From Chromohalobacter marismortui (GTDB taxonomy: Bacteria > Pseudomonadota > Gammaproteobacteria > Pseudomonadales > Halomonadaceae): a stretch of 64,000 bases of DNA. Positions 11,770 to 64,000 of the stretch are shown here, in pieces. The notes below the pieces were generated by a model. The model was not told the DNA's origin. It did not search any database and was given only the letters and a program-made list of their open reading frames with translations. The stretch spans positions 186,001 to 250,000 of the forward strand of contig NZ_SOBR01000001.1 of NCBI RefSeq assembly GCF_004364315.1, in the 5' to 3' direction. Numbering within the stretch: the stretch's first letter is position 1; each line of letters opens with the position of its first letter. The translations under genes and the position numbers were made by a program.

Positions 11770-12951
11770 ATGACCATCGCTGACCGCTGGCTGCTTCCCG
11801 ACGGAATGGATGAAGTGCTTCCGCCTCAGGCGACGCGCATGGAGCATCTGCGCCGTGCATTGCTCGATCTGTACGATCGCTGGGGGTATGACCTGGTGAT
11901 TCCCCCGGCGGTCGAGTTTCTCGACTCGCTGTTGACCGGCACGGGCACCGATCTCGATCTGCAGACGTTCAAGCTCACCGATCAGCTTTCCGGGCGGATG
12001 ATGGGCGCCAGCGCGGATGTGACGCCCCAGGTGGCGCGTATGGATGCGCATTCGTTGAAACGCAGCGGGCCGGCACGGCTGTGTTACTGCACCACCGTTT
12101 TGCGCGCCAAGGCCGACAAGCATCAGGGCGGGCGCAGTCCGATCCAGGTCGGCGTGGAACTCTTTGGCCATGCCGGATTGGACGCGGATATCGAAGTATT
12201 GCGATTGGCGCTGACGGGGCTGGAAGTGTCAGGGGCCGGCGAAATGCATCTGGCGCTCAGCCATATCGGCATCTATCGTGCCTTGGTGCATGCGGCGGCA
12301 TTGAGTGACGACAGCGAGCATGCGCTGTTCGAGGCGATCGAGCGCAAGGCGTTCAACGATGTCGATGCCTTGGTGGCGCGGGATGTGCACGATCCTGCAC
12401 TCGCCGAGATGCTGCAAACCCTGCCGCGCCTTTACGGTGGGCAAGATGTGCTCGACCAGGCCCGTGAAGCCTTTGCGGGGGCTCCGCCTGCGGTCGCGGC
12501 GGCGCTGGATGAGTTGCAGGCGTTGTGCCGTGCCGTGACGTCCAACCATCTCAGCGCCGAGGTCTATATCGACTTGGCCGAATTGCGTGGATATCAGTAT
12601 CACACGGGCATGGTGTTCGCGGCTTATGTTCCCGGTTATGGTCAGGCCCTGGCCAAGGGAGGGCGTTACGACGATACCGGTCGCGCCTTCGGTCGAGCGA
12701 GGCCGGCGACGGGATTCTCCATGGATCTCAAGCTGTTGGCCTCGCTCGTCGAGAGTGGCCCGCGGGGCGATGCCATTTGGGCGCCGGCCGACGATGATGC
12801 CACGCTTACTCAGACGATTGCACGCCTGCGTGCGTCCGGTGAACGGGTCATTCAGGCGCTGCCCGGTCAGCGTGTAGGGCCCCGCGAACAGCGTTGCGAC
12901 CGACAGCTAGTGAAGACCAATGACGAATGGCGGGTCGAACAGCTCGCGTAA
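11770..12951 (+). CDS. hisZ: ATP phosphoribosyltransferase regulatory subunit HisZ
   Basis: HisZ is a catalytically inactive histidyl-tRNA synthetase paralogue that forms the first enzyme of histidine synthesis together with short-form HisG. The 393-residue product shows the class II synthetase-like core (LPDGMDEVLPPQA, DVTPQVARMD, QVGVELFGHAG, AKGGRYDD) but lacks the C-terminal anticodon domain of HisS. ATG 11770 follows CAGGACCGAAAA. Its position just before purA matches pseudomonads and other Oceanospirillales-type genomes. The 138-base leader after the terminator must hold its promoter; TATAAC at 11697-11702 is a possible -10 without a convincing -35. Confidence 0.93.
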   Translation: MTIADRWLLPDGMDEVLPPQATRMEHLRRALLDLYDRWGYDLVIPPAVEFLDSLLTGTGTDLDLQTFKLTDQLSGRMMGASADVTPQVARMDAHSLKRSGPARLCYCTTVLRAKADKHQGGRSPIQVGVELFGHAGLDADIEVLRLALTGLEVSGAGEMHLALSHIGIYRALVHAAALSDDSEHALFEAIERKAFNDVDALVARDVHDPALAEMLQTLPRLYGGQDVLDQAREAFAGAPPAVAAALDELQALCRAVTSNHLSAEVYIDLAELRGYQYHTGMVFAAYVPGYGQALAKGGRYDDTGRAFGRARPATGFSMDLKLLASLVESGPRGDAIWAPADDDATLTQTIARLRASGERVIQALPGQRVGPREQRCDRQLVKTNDEWRVEQLA

Positions 12952-14280
<1,329 letters not shown>

Positions 14281-54314: not shown

Positions 54315-54427
54315 TGCCATGAGCTAGGGAATCCCCGCGTGCATCGCTTGTCCAACGGCTTGTATCGGACCCGGTTCGTTAGTACCGGGTACTCTGGAGT
54401 TCGATGAAGGCCGTTAAGGAGGCAGCG

Positions 54428-54766
54428 ATGACGATTCGCGCTGGCTGGCGTTTGGGAGGAATCGGTATGCTGATGGTGTTGCTGAGTGGACCGCTGCTGG
54501 CCCAGGCGACGGACGCCGCACCCAGTGGCGAAGACAAGGCCAGTTTCGGCCAGGGCGGCATGCAAACACCGCTCGATCAGCGTCGTAATGCGGTGACGTT
54601 CGGGCAGATGGATGTCGATGGGAATGGTGTGCTTGGCGAAGAAGAAGCGCGTCAGGCCGGTCAGCTCGAGCTCTTCCAGCGGCTCGACGACGGTACGGGC
54701 GAGGTCACGCGTGAGACGTTCCGGGATGAGATCGGCTCGGAGACGCTGCCCGAAGTGACGGATTGA
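54428..54766 (+). CDS. Exported EF-hand protein
   Basis: A 112-residue secreted protein. The signal peptide (MTIRAGWRLGGIGMLMVLL, cut after AQA) is followed by a Gly/Gln-rich stretch and an EF-hand: DVDGNGVLGEEEA (about 68-80) has Asp, Asp, Asn and the final Glu at positions 1, 3, 5 and 12, so it can bind calcium. A second loop, DDGTGEVTRETF, is one residue short and probably degenerate. ATG 54428 has AAGGAGG five bases upstream; ATG 54404 in frame also has GGAG. Function unknown. It lies after dadA and before a terminator. Confidence 0.8.
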   Translation: MTIRAGWRLGGIGMLMVLLSGPLLAQATDAAPSGEDKASFGQGGMQTPLDQRRNAVTFGQMDVDGNGVLGEEEARQAGQLELFQRLDDGTGEVTRETFRDEIGSETLPEVTD

Positions 54767-56545: not shown

Positions 56546-58525
<1,980 letters not shown>

Positions 58526-58689
58526 GCGGTGCTCCTTGTCACGATTGAGGCGACATCTTACACCCTGTGGCCGTCGGGATGGCGCGCAGACCGCCGATGC
58601 CGTGCGTGATCGACACGACATGCCGCCACGGACATGACCCATGGCGCTCGCTGTTGGCATAATGCGTCTTTTGCCCACGGAAACGACCC

Positions 58690-60159
58690 ATGACCGCCTG
58701 GAGCAAGCTTCTCGTCGCCACCACGCGGCTGCTCGACCTACATGACAGTGGCCATGAGCCCGGCTCGCCGTTCGTGCACGTCAGCCAGGAAAGCCGGCGT
58801 GGCCTGCACGACGGCTACTGGCTGGACCTTGGCTGCTTGCTGCTGGACTACCTGCTCGACGTGGACTTCGCGACCAACAGCGCCTTCGTGTCGCAGACGC
58901 GCTGCCTGGCGCACCTGCGCGAGTTCTATCCCGAACTGGCGCATGATGACCTCGGCTTCGTCGTCAACCTGCTCGCCACGCCCAGTGAAGTGCACTTTCG
59001 CGATGCGCCCCCGACACCGGAGGTGCGCGATGCCTCCGCGCCGCCGGAACCGGATGCCGGGGAGACGGTCGAGGCGCGCCGCGCGATGCGCAGCACCAAG
59101 CGGACCGCCCTGATCGAGAAGCAGAGCCAGACCGGCCAGGTACGCCTGACCGCCAGTGGCCGCCAGGCGGTGACGCTGGCCAGCCAGGTCGAGGACCTCC
59201 TGTATTCCGAATACGACGCCGCCAAGGTGCTGGCCGCCCTGGCGCGGGGCGATTTCGCCCGCATTCCCGACATCACCAACCAGATCCTGCTGGCGATCCG
59301 CGCCTTGACCCAGGAACTGCGCCGGGTGCGCGAAAACCCCACCCGCGAGGGCAAGCTGGCGGCGTTGCTCGACAACGAGCGCCACTATCACAATGCCTTG
59401 TCGAGCATTCAGGAGACGCTGCTTGACGCACGCGCGCAGCTTTCCACGCCACGCTTGATGGAGCGCTTCGCCGACTGGCGCGAGCGCGAGGCGGCACGTC
59501 ACGGCGAGGAGTGGGATCTTCGCATGCTGTCGAGTGCCATCGGGCGCGTGCTCACGGCGATCGAGAACCTCTCGCGACGGCTATCGGAGTTGCTGGCCGA
59601 TATCGCCGAGGGGCGCATTCAGTCGATGGGCGTGGTCGACTTCGCCGATGTGGCGCGCGGCCTGCTGGCCGCGCCCCCCGCGCCACGCATGAGCGAGGCA
59701 CTGGTGACACGCCTGATGCCGTTTCACGTCGACGTCGCCATGCCGCGCCTGGCACCGCTGACCCCATTGCTCGAGACTCGGCGCGCGGAGACCAGCCATG
59801 CCGCGCTGGTCTTCGATGAAGCCCAGGATGCGGCCCCCGAGGACCCTCTGCTGGCACGTTTTCTGGAGGCGCGCGGGCCGGCGCTACGGGCCCGGATCCA
59901 AAAGGCGCCGCTCTCGCTGCCCGAGGCCCTGGCCGAGGGCTGGCACCGGTTCGAGGGAGACGACTGCCTGGCGCAGTTGCTCAATACCTTCGTCGACACC
60001 GAGCTGCTCGACAGCCACCTGCGGGTGGGGATCGAGGCCCGCGGTTTCGACGTCACACTGGACGACGGCCGCGTGGTTCAGGCCGCCGTCACGCCTTCCT
60101 TGCGCGTCGCCACGCCGGCGGCGGGCACGTCCCCGGTCAACGAGGATGCATCACGATGA
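58690..60159 (+). CDS. MukF/MksF-like kleisin subunit of an SMC complex
   Basis: A 489-residue soluble protein, first in a three-gene operon. Residues 1-105 look like a winged-helix dimerisation domain, followed by a Pro/Glu-rich linker (106-130). The core RLTASGRQAVTLASQVED, then YDAAKVLAALARGDF and PDITNQILLAIRALTQELR, resembles the MukF/MksF region after its winged helix. A helical middle (about 230-320) and an acidic C-terminal part follow, where a kleisin would grip the ATPase head. It is not DUF3375, so it is not a type I Wadjet JetA. ATG 58690 has a weak site (GGAAA). The stop overlaps the next start (ATGA). Assignment rests on architecture and order, not on strong motifs. Confidence 0.58.
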   Translation: MTAWSKLLVATTRLLDLHDSGHEPGSPFVHVSQESRRGLHDGYWLDLGCLLLDYLLDVDFATNSAFVSQTRCLAHLREFYPELAHDDLGFVVNLLATPSEVHFRDAPPTPEVRDASAPPEPDAGETVEARRAMRSTKRTALIEKQSQTGQVRLTASGRQAVTLASQVEDLLYSEYDAAKVLAALARGDFARIPDITNQILLAIRALTQELRRVRENPTREGKLAALLDNERHYHNALSSIQETLLDARAQLSTPRLMERFADWREREAARHGEEWDLRMLSSAIGRVLTAIENLSRRLSELLADIAEGRIQSMGVVDFADVARGLLAAPPAPRMSEALVTRLMPFHVDVAMPRLAPLTPLLETRRAETSHAALVFDEAQDAAPEDPLLARFLEARGPALRARIQKAPLSLPEALAEGWHRFEGDDCLAQLLNTFVDTELLDSHLRVGIEARGFDVTLDDGRVVQAAVTPSLRVATPAAGTSPVNEDASR

Positions 60160-60932
60160 ACATGAGTGAAATGGGCGAGGTCGTCGCCTACCTGCTGCGC
60201 TACCGCAGCGCCGAACGCGTCCCGGGCGGTGGCCGCAAGCGCCGCGCCGCGCGCGAGGGCCAGCTCTCCGAGCGCGATGTCTGCGCGCTGATCGACGATG
60301 CCAGCGATCTCGAGCGCGAGGCGCTGCGTGACTTTCTGGCCGGCCAGGGACTGAGGCTCAAGACGTTCGAGGCGGGCGACTTTCCGGGCATCCCGCCGGG
60401 GTCGCGGTATTACGCGCTGTTGCCGGATCCGGAGCTCGAGCAGCCCCCGCTGTATACCCGTCAGCCGGTGTTCGAGGCCCTCAAGTTGCGCCAGGAAAGC
60501 CGCAGCGAGCTGGCGCAGTGGTATCTGCAACTGTGGCTGCTCATGAATACCCTGCTGTACACCCGGTACAACCGCGCGCTTTCCGACGTCAGCCGTTACC
60601 AGGAGGCGACCTTCGCCAGTCACGAGCTGCTCGACCTGCTGCGCGATCAACTCGAAACGTTGCGTGCGCTGGGCGAGGCGGCACCGGAAACCAGCCGCGT
60701 GCTGCTCGAGGAGCGCGGCGAGGACCTCAACCGCCGCGTGCGGGCCTTCATCGACCTGCAGATACGTGCCGGCCTGCTCGAGGCGTCCGGCGCCTCGGGC
60801 GAGGACGCCTCGCCGGGCGATATCTGGCAGCAGACCCTGCTTGGCGCCCTGGAGTGCGAGCAAATCGGCATTCATCAATTGGGCCATCTCCAGGCGCTGG
60901 CCGAGGGACGCCTCGCGGAGGAAACGGCATGA
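60156..60932 (+). CDS. MukE/MksE-like accessory subunit of an SMC complex
   Basis: A 258-residue soluble, helical protein, second in the operon. The N-terminal part is a short helical domain with a basic stretch (PGGGRKRRAAREG, possibly DNA-contacting). The middle segment RQPVFEALKLRQESRSELAQWYLQLWLLMNTLLY and the late DLNRRVRAFIDLQIRAGLLE read like paired winged-helix subunits such as MukE and JetB. I see no catalytic motif. It overlaps its upstream neighbour by ATGA and the downstream ATPase gene by ATGA, so the three proteins should be made in fixed ratio, as for MukFEB. Confidence 0.52.
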   Translation: MNMSEMGEVVAYLLRYRSAERVPGGGRKRRAAREGQLSERDVCALIDDASDLEREALRDFLAGQGLRLKTFEAGDFPGIPPGSRYYALLPDPELEQPPLYTRQPVFEALKLRQESRSELAQWYLQLWLLMNTLLYTRYNRALSDVSRYQEATFASHELLDLLRDQLETLRALGEAAPETSRVLLEERGEDLNRRVRAFIDLQIRAGLLEASGASGEDASPGDIWQQTLLGALECEQIGIHQLGHLQALAEGRLAEETA

Positions 60933-63900
60933 GCGTGATCAATCGCATCGAAGTCGCCAACCTGCTCAACAAGCATGGCGATATCGCCTCGCCATGGGAC
61001 GCCAAGATGCGTCACCTGCTGCTCGATCTGCGCGGCCAGTCCAGCGCCATCAGCATGGAGAACGGGTTCGGCAAGACCACCCTGGCCGAAGCCCTGATCG
61101 GCCTGCTGTCCCGCGACAGGAGCCTGATCTCGCGCACGCGCCGCAAGTGCTCGCCGTCCACGGTGGCCGGCGAGGGACGTAGCTGGAGCCATTTGCGCGT
61201 CGAATTCCGCACCCGCAGCGGCAGCGAGCGCCAGGACGACATGCTCGCCGCTGCCGGCGAGGAAGTCGCCGGCGAGACCTTCGTGTTCGGCTTCTACGGC
61301 TACAGCGACGGCAGCGGCCTCGCTTTTTATCACTATGCCGGGCGCCTGGAAGACATTCCCGTTCATCACTACACCGTCGACGGCAAGCTGGCGTTGAGTG
61401 CCAACAGCGACGTCAAGGCCGACATGGCGAATCGCGGCGTGCGTCTGACCCACAACCGTGAAGAATGGCTCGACGCGGTCGGCGCGCATGTCTCGCGCCG
61501 GGAACTGGCGCAGCTGGCGGCTTTCCAGAAGGAGGGCGGTGCCGACAAGAGCCAGATCTTCAATGCCATCAAGCCGCGCGGCGGCGAGAAGGCGGACCAG
61601 GCCTTCTTCTTCGAGGTGCTGGCCCCGGAGATCCTCTCCGGCGCGACGCGCGGCGAGACCGACGAAAGCGAGGAACTGATCGAGGAGGTGATCCTCAACT
61701 CCGGCACCAACATCACCGAGTTGCGTCACCGTCTCGAGGAGGCGGAGCACGATCAGCGGCGTGCCGAGGACAAGGTCGCGCGGCTGGCAACGCTGAGCGA
61801 CGACGGCGCAGCCCTGCTGGCGGCACGCGACGAGCTCGAGCGCCTCGATGCCGGCTTCCAGGGCCTCGAGTGCCTGCTCGGCGGACAGGCCCTGCTGGGC
61901 TTGCCGGGGATTCCCGTGACACCCGCCGAGGCCGAGGACGAAACGCTGGATGCCGCGATACCCTGTGGTTTCGCCTGGGCCAGTGGCGATACACGACGGC
62001 CGCGCGTCTCGCTATGGCTGCTGGCGCGTCTCTCGGGAGGCCGCGAGCGCAGCATTCGTCAGGCGCTGTCCGAGCGCGGCGCGCGGGTCGACGCCCACCG
62101 GCGCCTGGTGCATCTGCCCGAGGCCGCCTGGCCGGCCGGTCGCGAAATCGGTCACGTCGACTTCACCGCGGCGCGTGAATGGCTGGCCGAGACCCTGAAC
62201 TTCGACGACGATGCCGCGCGCCATCGTGCCCTGGCGGCGCTGGATGCCGGCGCCGATGTCTTCGAAGCGCGCGACGGCAACCGCTTCCGCGAGGAGGTGA
62301 TCGCCGACCAGACCTACCGCGATGAGCTGGGCGCCGACATTCAGGCCGCCGAGCGGCATCTCGAGACGCTCGAGCAGCAACGCGAACGCTTGGAAGGTCA
62401 GCAACGCGAGTTCGTCGACAACCAGAGCTTCTATACCCAGGCGCTGAGCGAGGGGCTCTTCGACGAAGCCGAACTGGAGGCACCCGAAGCCACCGCCGAG
62501 GCGGCGAAGGTCGAGGCCGAGTCGGCACGCCAAGCCTTGAACGCCCACCTGGGACGCATCGGCGAGCTCAAGCAGGTCGCCGCCTGGCATGCCGAGTTTC
62601 AGCAACAGGCCCCGGGAGTGTCGCCTGGCGAGCGCCTGGCCGAAAAGCAGGCGCGCGATGAGGTGCTCGAAGAGGCGCATGCCGAGGCCGAGGCCCAGCG
62701 TGAGCCGTTGGCGTCGCGTTGCGAGACACTGCGCCATCAGGCCGAGGCGCTGCGCGACGAACAGCAACGCCTGGCCGGCGAGCAGGGCTTGCTCGAGCAG
62801 GGGCAAGCACCGTGGCGTGCCTTCGTCGACGGCTGGCCCGAGGAGGACGTCACCGGCTTCTGGACGCGCCGCAAGACGGCGCTGGCCGAACTCGAAACGC
62901 GCTGTCACGGAGCCGAGCAACGCGCCGAGGATGCCCGCCGAGAGCAGGCGCGTCTCGCCCCCCTGCATGACGCAGCGCAGCGTTACGCCGACTATCATGG
63001 CGACGACGAGCCGGTGCATCTGCGGCAAACCCTGTATGAGCGTGCCCGCGCGCTGGATGACGAAGGACACCGCCTGGAGCAGGAGCAGCAGCGTCTGCGT
63101 GAGTTGTCTCAGGCGCAGCGTGACTTCGCTTCGCGTGTCGAGGCCGACCCCGAGCGCTGGCTGCGTGACGCCCAGCGGCGCTACCCGCGTCTGCTCAGCG
63201 AGGCCGATGCCCTGGATGACGCCATCGAGGAGCGCCGACGTTATCTCGACAGCCTGGCGGGCGACCCGCTCGAGCGGCGGGCGGTGGAAGCCGAGGCCCA
63301 GCAGTGCCTGGATGCCGCGGGGATCGCCTGGCAGCCCCTGCATGCGGTGCTCAACGATGCCGAGGTCGAACGCGAACGGCGTCGCGGCTGGCTGAGCCAG
63401 GCCGCCGGCCTGCTGTTTTCGCCGGTGGTGGCGGGCGACGACGAAGCGGAGCGTGCCGCGCGCTGCTTGATCGACGCCGGGCTGGCGTTGCCGGTGTTCG
63501 AGAGCGCACGCCTGACGGCTCTGCTCGAGGCCGGTCGGCCACCGCTGGGGGCGGTGCAGGGCAGCGAAACCCTGGCCGTCAAGGCTGCGCTCGATCCACG
63601 CTATCTCGAGGAGCTGCGTCGCGATACCGAGCGTCGCCTGAGTGCCGACCACGAGCGTCGGGCCGCCCTGGCGGCGGAATGCGAACGTCTCGACCCGCAT
63701 GGCGATGTCTTCGCGCTGGCGCTCAAGGCCCGCGAGGCGCAACAGGCGGACGCCGAGACGGCCCTGGCCACGCTCGACGAGCGCCATCAGCAGCTCGATG
63801 CCCGACAGGCGGAGCTGACGCCGCGCTTGACCGAGGCGGCACTGAATTGCATCGACGATTATCAGCGATATCTGCAGGCAGGCGGCCAGGCCGCCGTGGC

Positions 63901-64000
63901 TCAGGCCGAGGCGGCACTCGAGGAGGCCGAGCGCGACCTCGCGGATTGCCGTCCGGCGATGCAGCAAGCAGCGGAAGAGCTGGAGACCCACGGGGCGACC
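60929..64000 (+). CDS. SMC-like ATPase (MukB/MksB/JetC-like), 3' end outside window
   Basis: At least 1024 residues, open through the right edge. The Walker A is SMENGFGKTTLAEALIG (about residues 45-62), an NGxGKT loop as in MukB-type ATPases. A globular head (about 1-240) leads into a helical coiled coil with a globular insert (about 295-440, GFQGLECLLGGQALLG onward). A long heptad-rich arm follows (Glu/Arg/Ala/Gln-rich, from about 450), then a hinge-like globule near 790-880 (RRGWLSQAAGLLFSPVV; ARCLIDAGLALPVFES). The rest is coil again. Walker B and signature motifs must lie beyond the window. ATG 60929 overlaps the previous stop. SbcC-like or RecN-like ATPases are alternatives, but the operon order favours MukB-type. 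Confidence 0.62.
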   Translation, partial: MSVINRIEVANLLNKHGDIASPWDAKMRHLLLDLRGQSSAISMENGFGKTTLAEALIGLLSRDRSLISRTRRKCSPSTVAGEGRSWSHLRVEFRTRSGSERQDDMLAAAGEEVAGETFVFGFYGYSDGSGLAFYHYAGRLEDIPVHHYTVDGKLALSANSDVKADMANRGVRLTHNREEWLDAVGAHVSRRELAQLAAFQKEGGADKSQIFNAIKPRGGEKADQAFFFEVLAPEILSGATRGETDESEELIEEVILNSGTNITELRHRLEEAEHDQRRAEDKVARLATLSDDGAALLAARDELERLDAGFQGLECLLGGQALLGLPGIPVTPAEAEDETLDAAIPCGFAWASGDTRRPRVSLWLLARLSGGRERSIRQALSERGARVDAHRRLVHLPEAAWPAGREIGHVDFTAAREWLAETLNFDDDAARHRALAALDAGADVFEARDGNRFREEVIADQTYRDELGADIQAAERHLETLEQQRERLEGQQREFVDNQSFYTQALSEGLFDEAELEAPEATAEAAKVEAESARQALNAHLGRIGELKQVAAWHAEFQQQAPGVSPGERLAEKQARDEVLEEAHAEAEAQREPLASRCETLRHQAEALRDEQQRLAGEQGLLEQGQAPWRAFVDGWPEEDVTGFWTRRKTALAELETRCHGAEQRAEDARREQARLAPLHDAAQRYADYHGDDEPVHLRQTLYERARALDDEGHRLEQEQQRLRELSQAQRDFASRVEADPERWLRDAQRRYPRLLSEADALDDAIEERRRYLDSLAGDPLERRAVEAEAQQCLDAAGIAWQPLHAVLNDAEVERERRRGWLSQAAGLLFSPVVAGDDEAERAARCLIDAGLALPVFESARLTALLEAGRPPLGAVQGSETLAVKAALDPRYLEELRRDTERRLSADHERRAALAAECERLDPHGDVFALALKAREAQQADAETALATLDERHQQLDARQAELTPRLTEAALNCIDDYQRYLQAGGQAAVAQAEAALEEAERDLADCRPAMQQAAEELETHGAT

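Follow-up and report, generated by a model that had tools for sequence, protein, structure and literature searches.

The last part of a 64,000-nucleotide window of the Chromohalobacter marismortui genome (contig C1, positions 186001-250000; genome size 3.55 Mb) contains most of a three-gene operon, A-B-C, encoding a MukF/JetA-like kleisin, a MukE/JetB-like KITE protein and an SMC ATPase. Relatives of this operon carry a fourth gene for a JetD-type nuclease, which three sister species retain and the window's genome has lost, and the remaining core is maintained by selection in lineages without it. We hold with moderate confidence that the operon encodes a divergent Wadjet-type complex that has been repeatedly disarmed. 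Its core would still serve a purpose for which no nuclease is required, probably the folding of the chromosome, in the niche occupied elsewhere by MksBEF.

The operon and its missing nuclease

The three overlapping genes of 489, 258 and more than 1024 residues described by a reading of the sequence alone stand as reported, with four-base overlaps at both the A/B and B/C junctions. When the contig was extended, the SMC gene was completed at 1632 aa with its stop 1827 bases beyond the window (Table 1). The sequence-only reading proposed to look for a nuclease after the ATPase; there is no nuclease or other fourth gene there, and the 3' end of the SMC gene instead runs into the first bases of a gene for a bacterial globin, which scores 101 bits with Pfam Bac_globin. 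The next gene, on the opposite strand, looks rarA-like. The order A-B-C is kept in all 47 named loci found via B, with A running off the contig end in L039 and L047; these loci are those having short exact peptide patterns in common with B and are not a census. This conserved order, together with dN/dS ratios (nonsynonymous to synonymous substitution) far below 1, indicates that the operon is not a product of chance.

The nuclease is found in the relatives. A JetD-type gene stands directly after C in all three operon-bearing genomes of another family, f8 (G163, G689 and G792), which serve as an outgroup, and encodes 343-349 aa there. Pfam JetD_C (cut-off 22 bits) was exceeded in all three proteins scanned, with 33.4 bits for G163 and 31 and 32.3 bits for the others, and the G163 protein matched PADLOC JetD1 at 7.6e-19. 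JetD1 models were the best PADLOC matches of the relatives' JetD, whose homology to a type I JetD was found by hhalign (probability 98.6, E 7.5e-16). These genes show a Wadjet ancestry. The Pseudomonas aeruginosa plasmid pPUV-6 (L015, 14232-16999) has a tblastn match, at 33% identity, to only the C-terminal 18% of the SMC protein; the next gene is annotated with a JetD domain and is shorter. The matched stretch and this gene are flanked by a mercury transposon and by other cargo.

A JetD profile (A5) was built from the three f8 proteins and the one from the P. aeruginosa plasmid. By this profile, 20 named loci, including those of the three named Chromohalobacter, have JetD directly after the SMC gene and 25 lack it; the remaining two of the 47, L039 and L063, are excluded from the counts because their contigs stop 629 and 205 bases past the SMC gene. 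An initial gene table suggested that all forms in Halomonadaceae were three-gene operons, which the profile disproved. Searched across 35 whole genomes, the profile matched 14; among the 16 genomes without JetD in the operon (the window's genome and G872, in which the contig ends early, included), 15 gave no match anywhere and one gave a weak match of 33 residues. Pfam JetD_C likewise had no match in the window's genome. The motifs EN(P/A) and WGDLD are kept in 23/23 JetD proteins. The loss itself can be read from a sister locus with a 98% identical SMC protein: the two sequences agree until a few codons before the end of the SMC gene, where the window's genome has a short unrelated stretch followed by globin, and about 1.1 kb containing JetD is deleted. 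The JetD/MksG nuclease that had been considered as an unseen fourth gene thus exists in relatives and has been lost here. No replacement effector specific to the JetD-less loci was found among the six nearest open reading frames (cfa, lysR, PAS and rarA, named by eye).

The core proteins are remote from known families. A and B reached no Pfam or NCBIfam family and did not match the PADLOC models of JetA and JetB (types I-III), while JetC gave marginal matches (E 1.9e-4 to 0.17) to the middle part of the SMC protein in two relatives only; the window's SMC protein was searched against PADLOC and Pfam with its first 1024 residues. Neither a single type I set of JetA, JetB and JetC nor the single sequences of E. 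coli MukF, MukE and MukB were picked up by hhalign. DUF3584 (PF12128) and MksE (PF21980) matched neither B, nor residues 1-1024 of C, nor the full proteins of the G163 relative, and a PF12128 search of the whole of G000 had no match at 1e-20. A PADLOC match of A to PDC-M07A (E 0.0047), which spans a helical stretch, was rejected, and sequence searches of solved structures returned nothing meaningful, the best being a coiled-coil chimera (E 0.003). The predicted fold of A is most like MukF, and this kleisin model also resembles a chain of Wadjet-II JetABC; the predicted fold of B has a weak likeness to MukE/JetB of the KITE group. The proposed MukFEB/JetABC-like arrangement, a kleisin-like A and a divergent type are supported, and a KITE-like B more weakly.

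Two outcomes had been named as counting against this assignment, namely A and B matching non-kleisin families and an SMC C-terminus devoid of the ABC signature and Walker B. The profile searches linked neither protein to such a family and the C-terminus has both motifs, although the Walker B glutamate is missing. The ABC signature MSEGQREAV (core SEGQR, not SGGQ/SGGE) is joined by a Walker B motif that retains the Asp (VILLDGLFSKLS), and GLIHNP stands at the expected His switch, so that the P-loop Lys/Thr, the ABC signature and the Walker B Asp of canonical SMC/ABC proteins are all present. The P-loop MENGFGKTT is identical in 13/13 aligned SMC proteins and in 51/52 of a wider set (the string was not found in L043). 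In ABC ATPases, hydrolysis is driven by a catalytic Glu following the Walker B Asp and by the D-loop Asp. Here the Walker B and D-loop segment reads LDGLFSKLSH in 52/52 SMC proteins and LDGLFSNLSH in the plasmid relative, which places Gly at the catalytic Glu position and Ser at the D-loop Asp position with or without nuclease alike (motifs aligned by eye). The same site is NDESFSKMD in type I JetC, LLFLDEAARLD in MukB and IDEIG in the MksB of L092. A hinge-like globule suggested for the SMC protein was not confirmed, a scan of heptads and conservation having failed to place the hinge.

Selection on the core after JetD loss

Mapped onto a phylogeny of 52 SMC proteins, which was built quickly and has some long branches, presence of JetD changes at least 12 times, with 10 changes forced by well-supported branches; shuffled labels gave 16.8. 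Assuming irreversible loss and an ancestor with JetD, the binary tree requires 20 losses; collapsing branches below 80 lowers the number to 16, and collapsing those below 95 to 15. The JetD and SMC trees of 23 JetD-bearing loci have 14/20 splits in common, including genus-level clades; among the six that differ, which mostly concern how clades join, two have a support of 91-93 in the JetD tree. This agreement suggests that JetD largely travelled with the operon and that its absence is best read as loss, and a few JetD transfers may have occurred.

A, B and C are under purifying selection without JetD. By the Nei-Gojobori method, seven pairs of loci both lacking JetD gave dN/dS of 0.070-0.183 for A, 0.030-0.139 for B and 0.071-0.145 for C. 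Pairs both having JetD gave 0.111-0.207 for A and 0.130-0.158 for B (four pairs) and 0.077-0.205 for C (five pairs), and four mixed pairs gave 0.046-0.115, 0.067-0.235 and 0.068-0.104, respectively. Two JetD-less pairs are sisters, L016/L056 at a dS of 0.53-0.79 and L064/L065 at 1.07-1.61, which is close to saturation; hence their divergence probably followed the loss. Their frames are intact and their dN/dS of 0.090-0.139 is not above the range of the JetD-bearing pairs. Selection on the JetD-less core indicates that it is kept for a task in which the nuclease takes no part.

This branch of SMC operons is narrow, as only 3/398 genomes of a phylum-level sample (at 1e-10) and 8/390 genomes of the order (at 1e-6) were positive. 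G074 was dropped as a carrier of a B relative because its weak match sits inside a long unrelated frame, and two scans of viral contigs produced no confirmed match.

Alternation with MksBEF in the family

ScpA was present in all 121 genomes of a family sample, and the operon was therefore rejected as the family's only condensin. The operon occurs in 43 and DUF3584 in 44 of these genomes, with no genome having both (Fisher p 7e-12, not to be taken literally since the genomes are related); shuffling within genera gives 7.4 expected co-occurrences, and 0/20000 shuffles were as low as the observation. In 275 genomes of the family, including the 121, the operon was found in 80, DUF3584 in 140 and both in two (G944 and G946, with DUF3584 scores of 529 and 555 bits), compared with 40.7 expected. 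When six divergent DUF3584 proteins of 505-555 bits (G226, G890, G930, G944, G946 and G973) are set aside, a separation made after the scores were known, the operon is in 80 genomes, an MksB-type SMC in 134, neither in 61 and both in none, against 39 expected. Identity to the MksB of L092 is 25-26% in the three of these six divergent proteins that were read. The divergent DUF3584 operons of L124, L125 and L101 have four genes and defence-like neighbours (judged by eye), and those of L124 and L125 coexist with an operon of the window's type. Five genera contain both operon types, and in the window's genus the A-B-C operon is present in 4/10 genomes. MksB was seen only as separate pieces or fragments in G934, G948, G964, G965, G975, G983, G990, G1002 and G1021, which may reflect assembly breaks or decay.

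The two operons can occupy the same chromosomal slot. The left neighbour of A-B-C is a divergently oriented recQ-type gene that serves as a slot marker, the window's copy being 78.8% identical to its L022 orthologue. In each of two operon-less genomes inspected, out of six in the window's genus, a different SMC operon fills the space from recQ to globin. It comprises a DUF3584 SMC gene (735 bits), MksE (38.8 bits against a cut-off of 27) and a gene for 419 aa that matches no family. Nine of the 20 DUF3584 loci read show slot flanks. In the retrieved sequence of the other 11 there are none, not counting a distant PAS-type match that two of them have. The nine are six MksBEF genomes of the window's genus, reaching from recQ to rarA, one g112 genome adjoining recQ and globin, and two with one-sided flanks, a g4 genome (recQ) and another g112 genome (cfa and lysR). 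On a recQ tree of 42 rows, from which four duplicate loci were removed, the slot occupant changes at least five times, three of them forced. In L116 (G209, 12295-13902), which belongs to another genus, a BCCT transporter gene beside jetA is 94.9% identical to the MksBEF-slot copy of the window's genus, hinting at a recent transfer of slot segments.

We ruled out that the MksBEF partner is nuclease-less, since a Toprim-like fourth gene with EN and GDFD motifs is present in 12 of 19 MksBEF loci, while the other seven have none within 2.5 kb (Table 1). An iterated profile search connects these genes with those in fourth position in L101, L124 and L125; in the divergent DUF3584 operons, both fourth genes scanned by Pfam contain DUF7281 and one matches JetD2. 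The fourth-gene state changes at least three times on the MksB tree, and in the window's genus the gene is present in 1/6 MksBEF operons. As MksBEF is itself often Wadjet-like, exclusivity alone becomes a weaker pointer to a condensin. With both complexes losing their nucleases in parallel, the pattern of repeated disarmament is strengthened. Elsewhere in the window, positions 54404-54766 presumably encode a small exported protein with an EF-hand-like DVDGNG motif.

Table 1. Features of the operon region in window coordinates, and MksBEF loci by fourth gene
Feature	Position or loci	Strand	Remarks
Gene A, MukF/JetA-like kleisin, 489 aa	58690..60159	+	model: winged helix, long helical middle, winged-helix-like C-terminal part
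Gene B, MukE/JetB-like KITE, 258 aa	60156..60932	+	
Gene C, SMC ATPase	60929..64000	+	residues 1-1024 of 1632 in window; stop at C1:251827 = window coordinate 65827
P-loop (Walker A) of C, MENGFGKTT	61055..61081	+	residues 43-51
recQ-type helicase gene, divergent left neighbour, slot marker	56546..58678	-	Pfam DEAD/Helicase_C/RecQ_Zn_bind on L022 orthologue
MksBEF with Toprim-like fourth gene	L096, L100, L102, L104-L108, L110-L113		
MksBEF without fourth gene	L092, L093, L097, L098, L099, L103, L109		

Possible roles and relation to known systems

We hypothesize that the ancestral operon was JetABCD-like, with A-B-C and a Toprim nuclease of the JetD type, and that A, B and C would form a kleisin-bridged SMC ring whose recognition of circular DNA would direct cutting by JetD, on the model of the Wadjet system. 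JetD has since disappeared from the window's genome and from many other lineages, in at least 15 separate losses if losses are irreversible, while selection kept A-B-C. The disarmed ring could then act on the chromosome beside SMC-ScpAB, accessory folding being its most likely role, and may share a niche with MksBEF, since the two are mutually exclusive, can use the same slot and have an optional Toprim-type fourth gene. We infer that the complex loads on the chromosome and folds DNA, and that exclusivity reflects equivalence with MksBEF. The suggestion of an alternative condensin or an anti-plasmid system thus keeps both candidates, with selection on the JetD-less core leaning towards the nuclease-independent role.

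Several observations weigh against this reading. The structural match of B is weak, JetD loss is recent in the window's own lineage, and the lack of the Walker B glutamate speaks against rapid motor action. In this family MksBEF cannot in general be taken for a condensin free of nuclease, so that the partner excluded by the operon may itself serve defence; two defences that are redundant or incompatible would show the same exclusivity. Kinship among the genomes and replacement within the slot may account for some of this exclusivity, operons that still have JetD avoid MksBEF just as the others do, and 61 of 275 genomes have neither system.

A serious though clearly less probable explanation is that the core is still a defence system, restricting plasmids or other foreign circles without a cutter of its own, either through loop extrusion plus silencing or by borrowing a nuclease, and that the MksBEF(G) niche is anti-plasmid. 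It would accord with the Wadjet ancestry, with the exclusivity of JetD-bearing versions, with the Toprim-like fourth gene of so many MksBEF partners and with the division of labour in Wadjet, in which JetABC recognises circles and JetD cuts them, as PMC10586767 describes. Repeated loss of the cutter would be odd, however, if cutting were the purpose, and this branch's nuclease is not encoded elsewhere in 15/16 JetD-less genomes (a search that covered this nuclease family).

Rather unlikely, in our view, is that homologous recombination between common flanks merely swaps the operons, which would make exclusivity uninformative on function. The 6/6 MksBEF genomes of the window's genus with the operon between recQ and rarA, and the one g4 and two g112 genomes with at least one slot flank, speak for such swapping; exclusivity nevertheless holds at the 11/20 flank-less DUF3584 loci, which are not decisive because some stretches are short or come from a genus with flank-less JetABC loci. 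We consider it still less likely that two such complexes harm each other or the cell through mixed subunits, collisions or mutual cutting of plasmid and chromosome. The 0/80 co-residence against 39 expected would suit this conflict, as would the fact that both types often bear nucleases, but profiles show no relationship between the two complexes, each of them coexists with ScpA, and two genomes contain the operon together with a divergent four-gene DUF3584 operon. That the operon is a functionless relic on its way out after JetD loss is improbable. The loss is recent in the window's genome, whose SMC protein shares 98% identity with that of sisters still having JetD, but frames stay intact at low dN/dS in sister pairs without JetD at dS 0.53-1.61.

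Returning to the disarmed accessory complex, we tentatively extend it to a wider, rather doubtful scheme in which defence SMC complexes repeatedly turn to housekeeping: this branch and MksBEF(G), both Wadjet-related but unrelated to each other, would alternate in one niche and slot, each repeatedly shedding its nuclease to become an accessory condensin, this branch doing so without the canonical catalytic Glu and D-loop Asp. If true, DNA folding by this branch would rely on an ATP cycle that is either non-canonical or limited to binding. Nuclease-bearing and nuclease-less forms occur in closely related species, and likewise in the second complex that takes its place, thus the step from defence to housekeeping could be tested by swaps between sister strains. 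A natural SMC protein without the catalytic glutamate also offers a route to ask whether ATP hydrolysis is needed.

In the open-access literature we found no description of the operon, its repeated disarmament or its alternation with MksBEF. The kleisin-KITE-SMC-nuclease order of Wadjet type I JetABCD (also MksBEFG) is the same in the operon's JetD-bearing relatives; all four genes are present in 20/47 named relatives and three outgroup genomes but not in the window's genome, where folds, motifs and order agree with the A-B-C subunits, weakly for B. The SMC protein differs from Wadjet in having D-G in place of D-E at Walker B and 1632 aa compared with 1228 aa in the type I example. A natural Walker B change from Glu to Gln in an SMC-like defence ATPase is noted for Lamassu LmuB in PMC10586767; LmuB has about 650 aa and is Rad50-like, whereas the operon's SMC protein shows Glu to Gly, is long and has kleisin and KITE partners.

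With MukBEF the operon shares the three-gene order F-E-B, a long SMC protein and predicted folds that are MukF-like and weakly MukE-like. MukBEF replaced Smc-ScpAB in its hosts, according to PMC10586767, while this operon does not, as ScpA is in all 121 sampled genomes. The MksBEF(G) of the same bacterial family is likewise accessory to SMC-ScpAB, with the same slot possible and an optional Toprim-like fourth gene, and differs by its DUF3584 SMC, by the order SMC-KITE-third gene and by the D-E kept in the MksB read. SMC and MksBEF condensins side by side in P. aeruginosa, reported in PMC7485682, provide a model for the operon's accessory role. The operon in this genome is thus neither an ordinary MukBEF nor a full Wadjet, but a divergent Wadjet-type branch that is new as a variant.

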